Shown here one piece after another: positions 11,207 to 63,072 of a DNA stretch of 64,000 nt. The notes below the pieces were generated by a model. The model made no database searches. It worked only from the letters and a program-made list of their open reading frames with translations, and was not told where the DNA came from. The stretch is from Erythrobacter sp. BLCC-B19 (GTDB lineage: Bacteria > Pseudomonadota > Alphaproteobacteria > Sphingomonadales > Sphingomonadaceae): assembly GCF_028621955.1 (NCBI RefSeq), contig NZ_CP117516.1, forward strand, positions 1,324,001 to 1,388,000. Reading direction: 5' to 3'. The first letter of the stretch is position 1. Every line of letters starts with the position of its first letter. The position numbers and the translations under genes were made by a program.

Positions 11207-11247
11207 AAAAAAGCCCGGCGCGTTCCTGCTGCGGATCTGTGCCGGGC
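11207..11247 (-). terminator. Second of two tandem intrinsic terminators
   Basis: On the minus strand, GCCCGGC (11247-11241) pairs with GCCGGGC (11219-11213), followed by six T (11212-11207). The loop is long (about 21 bases). It backs up the terminator at 11251-11279 and insulates the CDC48-like gene from upstream transcription. Confidence 0.7.
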
Positions 11248-11250
11248 AAG

Positions 11251-11279
11251 AAAAAAGCCCGGCACGGGGTGCCGGGCTT
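11251..11279 (-). terminator. Strong intrinsic terminator on the minus strand
   Basis: On the minus strand, GCCCGGCA (11277-11270) and TGCCGGGC (11264-11257) form an eight-pair stem with a CCCCG loop, followed by six T (11256-11251). No protein gene lies upstream of it on this strand within 330 bases, because scoA is on the plus strand. This implies a non-coding transcript ends here. Confidence 0.85.
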
Positions 11280-11350
11280 GAAAAGTTTGGGAGAGGATGC
11301 CTGAAAGGCACTGTCTAATTGCCCCACGCGGTCCGATTGTGCAAGTGCGA
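11251..11350 (-). ncRNA. Candidate small regulatory RNA
   Basis: The minus strand upstream of the terminator has the layout of a trans-acting alphaproteobacterial sRNA. A small hairpin (TGCCT-TTC-AGGCA) is followed by an unpaired pyrimidine-rich segment TCCTCTCCCAAACTTTTC, resembling an anti-Shine-Dalgarno sequence, then the terminator stem with six T. The 3' end is well defined near 11251. The 5' end is not; about 11350 is a guess, because I see no clear sigma-70 promoter. It may belong to the suhB/ar8-type or another CCUCC-bearing sRNA family, but I cannot assign one by eye. Confidence 0.45.
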
Positions 11351-34066: not shown

Positions 34067-34600
34067 ATGCGCATCGACAAGATTCCGACCGGCGTGAATC
34101 CCCCCGACGATCTCAACGTCATCATCGAAGTGCCGACTGGGGGCGAGCCGGTGAAGTATGAGTTCGACAAGGAATCGGGCGCGCTGTTCGTCGACCGCAT
34201 CCTGCACACGCCGATGCGCTACCCCGCGAACTACGGCTTCGTGCCGCACACCCTCTCGCCCGATGGCGACCCGCTCGATGCGCTGGTGATCTCGCGCTCG
34301 CCCTTCATCCCGGGCTGCGTGGTGCGCGCGCGCCCCATTGGTGTGCTGAACCTCGAAGACGAGCAGGGCGGCGATGAAAAGCTGGTCTGCGTGCCGGTGA
34401 ACGAGACCTTCCCGTACTATGCCGAGGTCAAGGAAACCACCGACCTGCCGAGCATCATCTTCCAGCAGATCGAGCACTTCTTCACCCACTACAAGGATCT
34501 GGAAGCCGAAAAGTGGGTGCGTGTGGGCAAGTGGGGCGATGCTGCCGAAGCGCGCAAGATCACCATCGAGGCGATCGAAAGGTATGGTGAGGGCAAGTGA
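34067..34600 (+). CDS. ppa: Inorganic pyrophosphatase
   Basis: A 177-residue family I soluble pyrophosphatase. It has the substrate-binding VKYEFDKESGALFVDRIL, RYPANYGFVPHTL and the signature DGDPLDALV with its metal-binding Asp residues. It hydrolyses PPi produced by synthetases such as the neighbouring HisS and by sulfate adenylylation. A hairpin without a U-tract follows the stop. Confidence 0.97.
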   Translation: MRIDKIPTGVNPPDDLNVIIEVPTGGEPVKYEFDKESGALFVDRILHTPMRYPANYGFVPHTLSPDGDPLDALVISRSPFIPGCVVRARPIGVLNLEDEQGGDEKLVCVPVNETFPYYAEVKETTDLPSIIFQQIEHFFTHYKDLEAEKWVRVGKWGDAAEARKITIEAIERYGEGK

Positions 34601-34677: not shown

Positions 34678-34776
34678 CGGTCGCGCTAGCGACCGCAAGG
34701 CCGACCGGCCGCCCGCAGGCGCCCGGAGCGTAGCGGAGGAACAGCGCCGAGGACGCAGCCGCGGCGGCGGCTGCGA
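34678..34776 (+). ncRNA. Four-hairpin intergenic structured element, copy A
   Basis: Reading the plus strand there are four consecutive hairpins: CGGTCGC/GCGACCG (34678-34695), GGCC/GGCC (34699-34710), an outer GGCGC/GCGCC stem (about 34718-34748) and GCAGCCGC-GGCG-GCGGCTGC (34755-34774). The linkers CAA, GCCCGCA and GAGGAC are shared with copies B and C, while three of the four stem sequences differ from both other copies. The last stem ends five bases before the stop codon of the convergent small membrane-protein gene. Orientation and function are unknown. Confidence 0.6.
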
Positions 34777-34779
34777 AAT

Positions 34780-35169
34780 CTAAAACAAACTCAAAACCAT
34801 CTTGAAGATCAGCGTCAGGCCAAAGGGCAGGCCGATCGCCATCGCCCACAGCGCGGCAATATCGCGCTTGAAGGCCGGGGCATAACAGGGGTCGGCCGCC
34901 TGCGCATCGCTGAGGCCGGCCCAGCGTTTCTCGAACCACCGGCACACCGGAATGATCGCTGCCACCAGCACAATCAGCGCAAGATAGGGCAGCAGGCTCG
35001 ACGAGCCTTCCGCCAGCGCCTTGACCGTCACGAAAATCTGCAGGGCCGTGTATGCCAGCAGGCCATAGGCGACATGATCGCTCATCGCCTTGCGCCAGTC
35101 GCGCACCTTGTTTGCGGCCAGTACCTGCCCCTTGGCGCGCCGCTTGCTGCTGACGTCGGAATTCACCAT
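34780..35169 (-). CDS. Small membrane protein, unknown function
   Basis: A 129-residue protein with a basic N-terminus (SSKRRAKGQVLAANKVRDWRK) and three predicted membrane helices (YGLLAYTALQIFVTV, YLALIVLVAAIIPVC, LWAMAIGLPFGLTLIFKMVLSLF). I do not recognise the family. The ATG at 35169 is preferred to longer in-frame starts. Its stop codon is five bases from the four-hairpin element at 34678-34776. It is divergent from lptB. Confidence 0.6.
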   Translation of the reverse strand: MVNSDVSSKRRAKGQVLAANKVRDWRKAMSDHVAYGLLAYTALQIFVTVKALAEGSSSLLPYLALIVLVAAIIPVCRWFEKRWAGLSDAQAADPCYAPAFKRDIAALWAMAIGLPFGLTLIFKMVLSLF

Positions 35170-37895: not shown

Positions 37896-38591
<696 letters not shown>

Positions 38592-38599
38592 CTGGTTGC

Positions 38600-38694
38600 G
38601 AGGGCGCCTCCGCGCCCTCGTCCTCGCTGCGTTTCGATCCTTTCAGGATCGAGCAGCTGCGGGCGGCCGGTCGGCCTTGCGGCCCTTCGGGCCG
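38600..38694 (-). ncRNA. Four-hairpin intergenic structured element, copy C
   Basis: In the minus orientation the order is CGGCCC-GAA-GGGCCG (38694-38680), GGCC/GGCC (38676-38665), an outer GCTGC/GCAGC stem (38657-38653 with 38630-38626) enclosing CGATCCT-GAA-AGGATCG, and GAGGGCGC-GGAG-GCGCCCTC (38619-38600). Linkers GCAA, GCCCGCA, GAAAC and GAGGAC match copies A and B. Its last stem begins nine bases after the ctrA stop, so as a ctrA 3'-UTR element it would be read in reverse. It may affect ctrA mRNA stability. Confidence 0.6.
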
Positions 38695-61966: not shown

Positions 61967-62067
61967 CGGCTGTGAAGCAGCCGCGAGCGCACGCGCGTGA
62001 GCCGCAGGTGCTCAAGCCCGCAGGGCTTGAAACAGCACCGAGGACGTGCCCGCGGAGGCGGGCACGC
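61967..62067 (+). ncRNA. Four-hairpin intergenic structured element, copy B
   Basis: Plus strand order: CGGCTG/CAGCCG (61967-61983), CACG-CG-CGTG (61990-61999), an outer GGTGCT/AGCACC stem (62007-62012 with 62034-62039) enclosing CAAGCCC-GCA-GGGCTTG, and GTGCCCGC-GGAG-GCGGGCAC (62046-62065). The linkers GCGA, GCCGCA, AAAC and GAGGAC match copies A and C while every stem differs. Its last stem ends eight bases before the stop of the convergent PfkB-kinase gene. Confidence 0.6.
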
Positions 62068-62073
62068 AAGGCA

Positions 62074-63072
62074 TCAAAGCCTTTCTTCCATCAGCTTGAG
62101 CATATCGGCCTCGGGCCGCGGGCCGTAATGCGCGATCACTTCCGAGGCGCAGATCGCGCCGCGCTTGAGGCAGCGGGTCAGCGGCTCGCCCTTGGCATAG
62201 CCCGACAGGAAGCCTGCCGCGAACTGATCGCCCGCGCCGGTGGTGTCGACCACCTTGATCACCGGCACCGCGGCGACTTCGGCGCGCTCGCCGTGCGCGA
62301 TCGCGACGGCGCCCTTCTCGCTGCGGGTCGCCACCAGCACCGGCACCTTGCCGGCGACAGCGGCGAGGCCCGCCTCGAAGTCGTCCTCGCCCGTCAGCGT
62401 CGCCAGCTCGGTTTCGTTGACGAACAGGATGTCGATGATGCCGTCCTCGATCATGCTGCGGAAATCGTCGCCGTGGCGGGCGATCACGAAGCTTTCGGAG
62501 GCGGTGAAGGCGACCTTGCGGCCCGCTTCGCGCGCGACTTCGATGGCGCGGCGCATGGCGCGGCGGGGCTCTTCGGGATCCCACAGATAGCCTTCGAGAT
62601 AGAGGATCGCGGCGCTGGCGATCAGCTCTTCATCGAGCGCTGCGGCAGGCAGGAACTGGCCTGCGCCGAGGAAGGTGTTCATCGTGCGCTCGCCATCGGG
62701 CGTCACGAAGATCAGCACGCGGCCCGTCGCCGGTTCGCCGCTGCGGGCGGGCGTGTCGAAGTCGATGCCGGTGGCGCGCATATCGTGGCGGAACACCTTG
62801 CCGAGCTGGTCGTCGGCGACCTGCCCGATGAAGGCGCATTGCAGGCCGAGCGTGGCGAGCCCCGCCAGCGTGTTCGCCGCCGACCCGCCCGAAAGCTCGC
62901 GGGCGGGCGGCATGGCTTCGTAGAGTTCCTCGGCCCGCGCCTCGTCGATCAGGGTCATGCCGCCGCGGTTCAGTTGCAGCTCCTCGATCAGCTCCTCCTC
63001 GCAAGAGGCGATCACGTCGACCACGGCATTGCCGATGGCGATCACGTCGTAACGGGGGGCGGTGTCGGGCAC
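62074..63072 (-). CDS. PfkB-family carbohydrate/adenosine kinase
   Basis: A 332-residue ribokinase-fold kinase. It has YDVIAIGNAVVDVIAS, the LSGGSAANTLAGLATLG motif, and the C-terminal DTTGAGDQFAAGFLSGYA with the catalytic Asp. The pattern is that of the alphaproteobacterial adenosine/sugar kinases of the PfkB family. The substrate cannot be fixed from sequence alone. The start is a GTG at 63072 with AAGGA upstream; the longer in-frame sequence lacks homology-like features. Copy B of the structured element abuts its stop. Confidence 0.88.
   Translation of the reverse strand: MPDTAPRYDVIAIGNAVVDVIASCEEELIEELQLNRGGMTLIDEARAEELYEAMPPARELSGGSAANTLAGLATLGLQCAFIGQVADDQLGKVFRHDMRATGIDFDTPARSGEPATGRVLIFVTPDGERTMNTFLGAGQFLPAAALDEELIASAAILYLEGYLWDPEEPRRAMRRAIEVAREAGRKVAFTASESFVIARHGDDFRSMIEDGIIDILFVNETELATLTGEDDFEAGLAAVAGKVPVLVATRSEKGAVAIAHGERAEVAAVPVIKVVDTTGAGDQFAAGFLSGYAKGEPLTRCLKRGAICASEVIAHYGPRPEADMLKLMEERL

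Follow-up and report, generated by a model that had tools for sequence, protein, structure and literature searches.

Three structured intergenic elements located in the window, i.e., the 64,000-nt stretch of the Erythrobacter sp. BLCC-B19 genome analyzed here, were found to be members of a dispersed family of non-coding repeats, approximately 100–120 nt long and composed of three or four hairpins. On balance, and with about even confidence, we regard this as a REP/BIME-like family of short, non-autonomous interspersed repeats in 3'-untranslated regions (3'-UTRs). It is presented as new: no published description of this repeat family was found in literature searches, and its polarity relative to stop codons is unusual.

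Copies, architecture, and distribution of the element

Copy A (34678..34779, + strand; genome model match C1:1358671-1358785) consisted of the hairpin hp0, also designated H4 (34678-34695), H3 (34699-34710), a linker to 34718, H1 (34718-34748), the motif GAGGA (34749-34753), H2 (34754-34775), and a tail (34776-34779). The corresponding parts of copy C (38592..38694, − strand; model match 1362589-1362704) were hp0 at 38680-38694, H3 at 38665-38676, H1 at 38626-38657, GAGGA at 38621-38625, H2 at 38599-38620, and the tail at 38592-38598. Copy B (61967..62073, + strand; model match 1385959-1386076) contained hp0 at 61967-61983, H3 in its second form at about 61987-62002, H1 at 62007-62039, GAGGA at 62040-62044, H2 at 62045-62066, and the tail at 62067-62073.

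These copies exist as the original prediction had claimed, and end-to-end alignment showed the order hp0(H4)-H3-H1-GAGGAC-H2 and common linkers. The number of copies had been put at three, which proved far too low; the covariance-model search of the genome and the family that had been suggested as a check found homologous copies, with 55 matches at E < 0.002 in the 3.6-Mb genome (model built from 33 type-I sequences). The interval first given for copy C began at 38591 and thus included the final nucleotide of the stop codon of ctrA. Copies B and C folded better than all 200 dinucleotide shuffles (z = −3.4 and −3.7, respectively), and the fold of copy A was weaker (z = −1.9, equalled by 6 of 200 shuffles). 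The GAGGACG-hairpin pattern matched only the three copies without mismatch, and four more matches appeared in the window at three mismatches.

The common architecture was derived from the copies in the same genome and from at least 120 stretches of named genomes carrying the core pattern, a tally that is a lower bound. It comprised, in order, hp0 (free sequence), GCAAG, H3 with a GACC loop, CGCCCGCAG, H1 in several forms, GAGGA, H2, and the tail. H2 was a hairpin of free sequence with the loop GGA plus G, T, or C, followed by an A-rich tail of the kind CAAACAAA. The loop had been described from the window as GGAG or GGCG; GGA plus G, T, or C was the rule (215 of the 239 elements with a 4-nt-loop hairpin after GAGGA), and the GGCG of copy A was unusual. 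H3 had been taken as the exception to stem variation, which was not the case, as it alternated among the stems GGCC, GGGC, GCGC, and GCCC with the GACC loop. The second form, present in copy B (GCGAGCGCACGCGCG.GAGCCGCAG), was common to other copies in the genome.

The H1 hairpin distinguished several types. In type I, which included the window copies, it was GGTGCTC...GAAAC.GCACC and variants thereof, and in type II it was CGAYGC-hairpin-GCRTGAGC. A third form occurred in Qipengyuania and others, and very short H1 hairpins, down to GCGAAGC, were also found. In addition, a distinct subfamily with GCAAGCGCGACCGCGCG.CCGCAGCGAAGCGAGGA, mostly with GATGAG/CTCATC flanking hairpins, was recognized at nine loci (L047, L051, L072, L077, L091, L097, L104, L106, and L113), whose hosts were Kiloniellales and Rhodospirillales bins where titled; this suggests old age or transfer between orders. 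In Croceibacterium xixiisoli (L082:2387-4671), eight exact cores lay within 2.3 kb on one strand, in three spacers, and these are direct-repeat arrays, unlike the head-to-head pairs described below.

With copy C as BLAST query, 46 matches were obtained in its own genome at E ≤ 10. Of 59 family genomes searched with the covariance model, 30 had matches at E ≤ 0.01; some of them had just one weak match, and the weakest matches may be due to chance. In an order-level sample, 34 of 113 genomes belonging to the same family carried the exact core, versus none of 83 genomes from other families of the order. In a class-level sample, the core was found in 4 of 289 genomes; one of these, from outside the family, had its H3 unpaired and is probably a chance match. 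Among the matches listed, Woodsholea, Glycocaulis, Oceanicaulis, and a Kiloniellales metagenome bin carried the core outside the family. Within the Erythrobacter genome, 20 of 42 sites were clustered in one 600-kb stretch that included the window (C1:1.07-1.66 Mb), and at least 20 sites in one such stretch were reached once in 2000 random placements.

A plasmid or phage was considered as a vector and rejected on the grounds that copy C had no BLAST match in plasmid and phage collections, although the core pattern was present in 57 stretches of IMG/VR contigs. The Rfam search of the window returned no family for the element, only tRNA and suhB/mmgR elsewhere in the window, the latter small RNA being located at 11241-11316 (− strand; 50.2 bits, cut-off 41). 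Rfam searches of four loci at E ≤ 1 yielded just microRNA models, under their cut-offs and outside the element.

Placement relative to genes and stop codons

All three window copies ended close to a stop codon of a gene on the opposite strand. The ctrA gene (37896..38591, + strand), encoding the response regulator transcription factor CtrA (NCBIfam NF045991, 420.6 bits, cut-off 350), had its stop codon at 38589-38591, 7 nt from the H2 end of copy C. The stop codon (62074-62076) of a PfkB-family sugar kinase gene (62074..63072, − strand; Pfam PF00294) was likewise 7 nt from H2 of copy B. Copy A lay 4 nt from the stop codon (34780-34782) of an unknown-family gene (34780..35169, − strand; start from our own gene caller) without Pfam or NCBIfam match. 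An inorganic pyrophosphatase gene (34067..34600, + strand; PF00719, NF002317) was located on the head side of copy A and formed a convergent pair with the former gene. Hence, the distance from the H2 end to the opposite-strand stop codon was 4-7 nt in all three cases (gaps 34776-34779, 38592-38598, and 62067-62073 for A, C, and B).

The same placement was examined across the family, on the basis of gene calls from our own simple codon-usage caller rather than from an annotation. Of 291 distinct elements, 261 were situated between two called genes, and the context counts leave out 28 elements at stretch ends and 2 inside a called gene. The intergenic elements comprised 112 in convergent spacers, 79 with both genes antisense, 56 with both genes sense, and 14 in divergent spacers; 680 background spacers comprised 111 convergent, 447 co-directional, and 122 divergent ones.

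The distance to stop codons was determined for 205 of the 295 elements outside the viral-contig set, namely those that had a GGA-loop H2 and were flanked on each side by a called gene. Of the 152 cases in which the tail side faced a stop codon, 96 had the tail no more than 20 nt away from it, compared with a mean of 31 and a maximum of 45 in 2000 trials of random placement in the same spacers. When the head side faced a stop codon, closeness was depleted (13 of 125, versus 27 expected). Thus, about half of the classified elements (96/205) ended, at the tail, no more than 20 nt from a stop codon, and this closeness was equal in convergent (63% of 83) and co-directional spacers (63% of 67). The rule was weaker in the viral-contig set, where it held for 7 of 19 cases at the same distance limit.

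In 103 stop-adjacent copies, selected because the gap measured 0-25 nt, H2 lay a median of 9 nt from the stop codon, and 15 nt or less from it in 90. The distance was variable, mostly 3-16 nt, and stop codons of all three kinds were represented. In the sense of the gene, the spacer between the stop codon and H2 contained 52% T, versus 21% in the first 10 nt after stop codons generally. The position of the element fits a 3'-UTR.

Many elements were paired, as detected with a loose pattern. A reversed partner was found on the head side of 77 elements (plus 3 that had a same-strand partner too, and 24 in the viral-contig set) and on the tail side of 1. Opposite-strand partners thus stood head to head with the tails outward and almost never tail to tail, so that convergent spacers often hold two elements head to head, with their tails toward both stop codons. 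Only a same-strand partner was found for 24 elements (plus 1 in the viral-contig set), many of which probably stem from the Croceibacterium arrays.

The frequency of convergent spacers (112 of 261 elements) would agree with ordinary bidirectional terminators between convergent genes. We consider this the least probable of the explanations weighed here, and a highly improbable one. The intrinsic-terminator pattern of a GC-rich hairpin directly followed by a T-run, scored at H2, was not found: in the sense in which the element is described here, H2 was followed by an A-rich tail and no U-run, and in the opposite sense the T-rich stretch was located ahead of H2. Further, the elements were also found in co-directional spacers and within a gene-transfer-agent-like operon. 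At the ctrA locus, a separate terminator-like hairpin with a T-run was seen by eye beyond the element in 7 of 10 filled sites, so the element does not look like the terminator there and was rejected as such; most empty sites had this hairpin too, and no such hairpin was seen by eye downstream of the other 3 filled sites.

The operon copies came from IMG/VR contigs. In L397 (14,630 nt), and also in L401 and others, copies were present between genes of a gene-transfer-agent-like cluster, which in L397 included terminase, portal, protease, capsid, tail tube, and Rcc01698-like tail protein genes, and were thus inside the operon. Of 26 sense copies in the viral-contig set, 11 had the tail 22-27 nt ahead of the start of the following gene.

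Conserved pairing, the folding strand, and turnover of copies

In the 33 type-I sequences, 95.3% of the cells were paired, and both sides had changed in 19 of 26 pairs. The covariation score was 0.531 versus 0.147 in shuffled data, with none of 500 shuffles reaching any of the measures, and pairing fell to 27-40% when the partner was slid by one to three columns. For two H2 pairs, each of the four Watson-Crick types was observed and every sequence was paired, and pairing was poorest in the inner H1 stem (86.5%). Pairing in the 30 type-II sequences was 97.3%, which was not equalled in 500 shuffles. Chance as the cause of pairing was ruled out by the shuffles and slid-column controls, which take the sequences as independent and are uncorrected for relatedness. 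The original prediction that pairing is preserved while the stems change was accordingly borne out on both sets of relatives.

If a palindrome were maintained solely in double-stranded form, G.T mismatches would be expected as often as A.C mismatches. In H2, 16 distinct G.T events were found versus 2 distinct A.C events in the sense of the element (p = 0.0013), where events were distinguished by position, pair, and neighbors, the 57 viral-contig stretches were included, and G.T and A.C were treated alike in stem finding. The ratio was 12 to 2 without the viral-contig loci and 17 to 2 by unique arms; under the harshest merging, by distinct position and pair only, it was 8 to 2 (p = 0.11). A looser count gave 41 to 6, a figure raised artificially by haplotypes shared through inheritance and by a fixed T.G pair at the outer end. 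The other stems leaned to G.T non-significantly (distinct events: hp0, 13 to 6; H1 outer, 4 to 1; H1 inner, 6 to 4), and H3 showed no lean (4 to 4, unique-arm counts). The excess in H2 indicates that the strand on which the element is described is probably the strand required to fold, whether as RNA or as single-stranded DNA (ssDNA), and that one folded strand rather than a symmetric DNA palindrome is probably under constraint.

This bias bears on the proposal that the element is a selected structured RNA. In such a case, the folding strand would be transcribed by convergent read-through or from an antisense start, the GGA loops and the free GAGGA would bind a protein or RNA, and the copies would represent one regulatory module. 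The tolerance of G.U over A.C on one strand, the near-invariant unpaired motifs between covarying stems, and the recurrence of elements behind homologous genes (22 clusters of at least two homologues among 113 stop-adjacent genes) are in line with it. However, single copies in co-directional spacers were antisense to both genes in 56 cases and sense to both in 30, so that read-through from an upstream gene would often be unavailable to the folding strand, and the proposal lacks a consistent side for a promoter. CsrA is the best-known binder of GGA hairpin loops; a role as a CsrA sponge or CsrA/RsmA-binding RNA was rejected, as PF02599 had 0 matches in the genome. Moreover, the G.T bias equally suits ssDNA. 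A selected RNA structure is thus unlikely in our estimation, though it ranks first among the alternatives; of this part of the original prediction, the conserved pairing and the one-strand bias are supported, and selection as RNA as such is not.

Copies at corresponding sites were compared among relatives. Classified by eye, the site behind ctrA carried a plain element in 10 of 30 genomes of the genus, including the present one, and a variant element in one genome (G372), the remainder being empty or holding remnants. CtrA was 97-100% identical to that of the present genome at the sites with an element, and in at least one genome (G368) the element was absent with CtrA 100% identical. The H2 stems at ctrA sites included GAGGGCGC, GCTCGCCC, GAGCGCGC, and GGAACCCGC, and the H1 and H3 forms appeared by eye in different combinations among near relatives. 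At the pfkB locus of copy B, relatives had a type I or a type II element or other repeats, and some had none, as judged by eye. One of these other repeats, at or near the pfkB stop codon by eye, was the inverted repeat GACAAA...GACAC with its complement, with GTAGGAAA some 150-200 nt further on (L333, L334, L337, L339, L340, L348, and L358).

The 51 pairs of elements at shared sites across genomes had a mean identity of 73%, and random copies had 70% between genomes and 73% within one genome. The nearest neighbor of 67 of 112 elements was in the same genome (expected 21, maximum 35 in 500 shuffles). Shared-site identity near that of random copies, together with nearest neighbors in the same genome, amounts to concerted evolution, whether through recombination among copies or through repeated replacement. 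The best within-genome identity was 0.94 in the present genome and 0.98 in G303; with so few near-identical copies, recent movement is hardly seen.

A caveat of the original prediction, that rapidly evolving repeats may mimic a conserved structure, holds, since the copies form an interspersed, concertedly evolving family. For this reason, part of the apparent covariation stems from the exchange of whole hairpin modules, besides compensatory change. The stronger version of this idea, in which template switching corrects palindrome arms and gene conversion copies hairpins, giving covariation without structural selection, appears very unlikely to us. It would account for the concerted evolution, the different whole H2 stems among close relatives at ctrA, where CtrA is 97-100% identical, and the recombined H1 and H3 forms noted there by eye. 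Yet a strand-symmetric process predicts equal mismatches, at odds with the 16 to 2 in H2 (8 to 2 under the harshest merging, and non-significant in other stems), and it leaves the conserved unpaired linkers and the stop-codon polarity unexplained.

Comparison with known repeats, mobilization, and significance

BIMEs are formed by inverted pairing of REPs, and RAYTs recognize REPs. Like E. coli REP/BIME, the present elements are short extragenic hairpin repeats in many copies. They differ in being a longer composite of three to four hairpins with linkers of its own (set apart by description), in that no RAYT was found in the genome, and in head-to-head pairing and tail-to-stop polarity. The broad REP/BIME features in the text available for PMC12306157 (palindromic, extragenic, multi-copy, and with a common consensus) were all found here; of the 14-40 nt given there for E. 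coli REPs, only single hairpins fall in the range. The family is therefore called REP-like and not REP, its elements being about 100-120 nt. Gene conversion has also been proposed for REP evolution, to judge from the title of Higgins (1988) as cited in PMC12306157.

Two alphaproteobacterial groups were also compared. According to the available text of PMC5082802, Br-REP1 of Bradyrhizobium is part of a three-palindrome element situated where the 3'-UTRs of convergent genes overlap, at about 200 sites, and shows fast turnover between relatives. The present family resembles Br-REP1/Br-REP2 in being alphaproteobacterial and, for Br-REP1, in the convergent 3'-UTR position and fast turnover; in contrast, the published consensus of Br-REP1/Br-REP2 differs, and the same text does not mention stem covariation with fixed linkers or stop-codon polarity for them. 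The Caulobacter CerM-associated intergenic repeats (CIRs) are described, in the portion of PMC2229807 consulted, as alphaproteobacterial repeats of about 110 bp with conserved RNA-like folds, GANTC methylation sites, and two long arms. The length, intergenic location, and conserved fold given there are shared by the present elements. Identity with CIRs was rejected because GANTC was found in the body of just 6 of 220 elements; it occurred within 25 nt past H2 in 30 of 220.

An ssDNA-mobile element was also considered, in which the described strand folds and is recognized by a transposase-like protein, with insertion polarity fixed at stop codons. In IS200/IS605 and RAYT-mobilized elements, single-strand-specific hairpins could be recognition structures. 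A strand-specific fold, partners standing head to head rather than tail to tail, dispersal without coding capacity, patchiness across genera, and relatives with element-free ctrA sites are all compatible with this. In contrast to IS200/IS605/RAYT elements, however, no such enzyme was found for the family: Y1_Tnp/RAYT gave 0 matches in the genome and showed no correlation with element content across 24 genomes, being present in 2 of 12 rich in elements and 4 of 12 free of them, so that RAYT was rejected as the mobilizer. The copies were also balanced in chromosome orientation, 28 forward and 27 reverse (orientation along the chromosome as distinct from replication strand), and a sequence-reading transposase leaves the variable stop distance, mostly 3-16 nt with all three stop kinds, unexplained. 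This explanation is ranked behind the structured RNA and is considered doubtful. A reverse transcriptase was likewise rejected as the mobilizer (PF00078, 0 matches in the genome).

For the REP/BIME-like family that we prefer, copies would have spread at the DNA level by some enzyme and would be kept alike by recombination, with modules exchanged through the conserved linkers. REPs are usually transcribed, from extragenic regions, in the text available for PMC12306157. In transcripts of the stop-adjacent gene, the element would form the first part of the 3'-UTR, which would begin with a U-rich spacer and then a strong hairpin at a median of 9 nt after the stop codon. Most likely, a hairpin block so near the stop codon would affect ribosome clearance and 3'-to-5' mRNA decay, by analogy with E. 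coli REPs. According to PMC5082802, the latter impede 3'-to-5' decay, and ribosomes stall where a REP is located no more than 15 nt from the stop codon; the spacing observed in the present family matches this closely. The G.T bias favors the strand antisense to the stop-adjacent gene and is therefore a misfit with a pure 3'-UTR role there. Also speaking against this reading are the weaker stop-codon rule in the viral-contig set, the scarcity of near-identical copies, the three filled ctrA sites with no terminator-like hairpin seen downstream, and the searches that found no mobilizing enzyme.

Another possibility, which we consider unlikely, is a new class of non-autonomous elements in which one strand has a fixed multi-hairpin fold, as RNA or ssDNA, and is placed tail-first at stop codons by machinery that is neither RAYT/IS200 nor a resident reverse transcriptase. 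If this were true, many 3'-UTRs across part of the family would carry a structured module that is rewritten by concerted evolution.

The REP/BIME-like repeats offer a clean natural case of a dispersed repeat in which pairing is well kept and stem turnover is fast, and the measurable strand bias can distinguish whether a folded strand is constrained or the palindromes are corrected symmetrically. They also serve as a warning for RNA discovery pipelines, as covariation in repeats can arise partly by module exchange between copies. The location of the tail within about 15 nt of a stop codon provides a specific, testable tie to translation termination, for which ctrA is a convenient locus.
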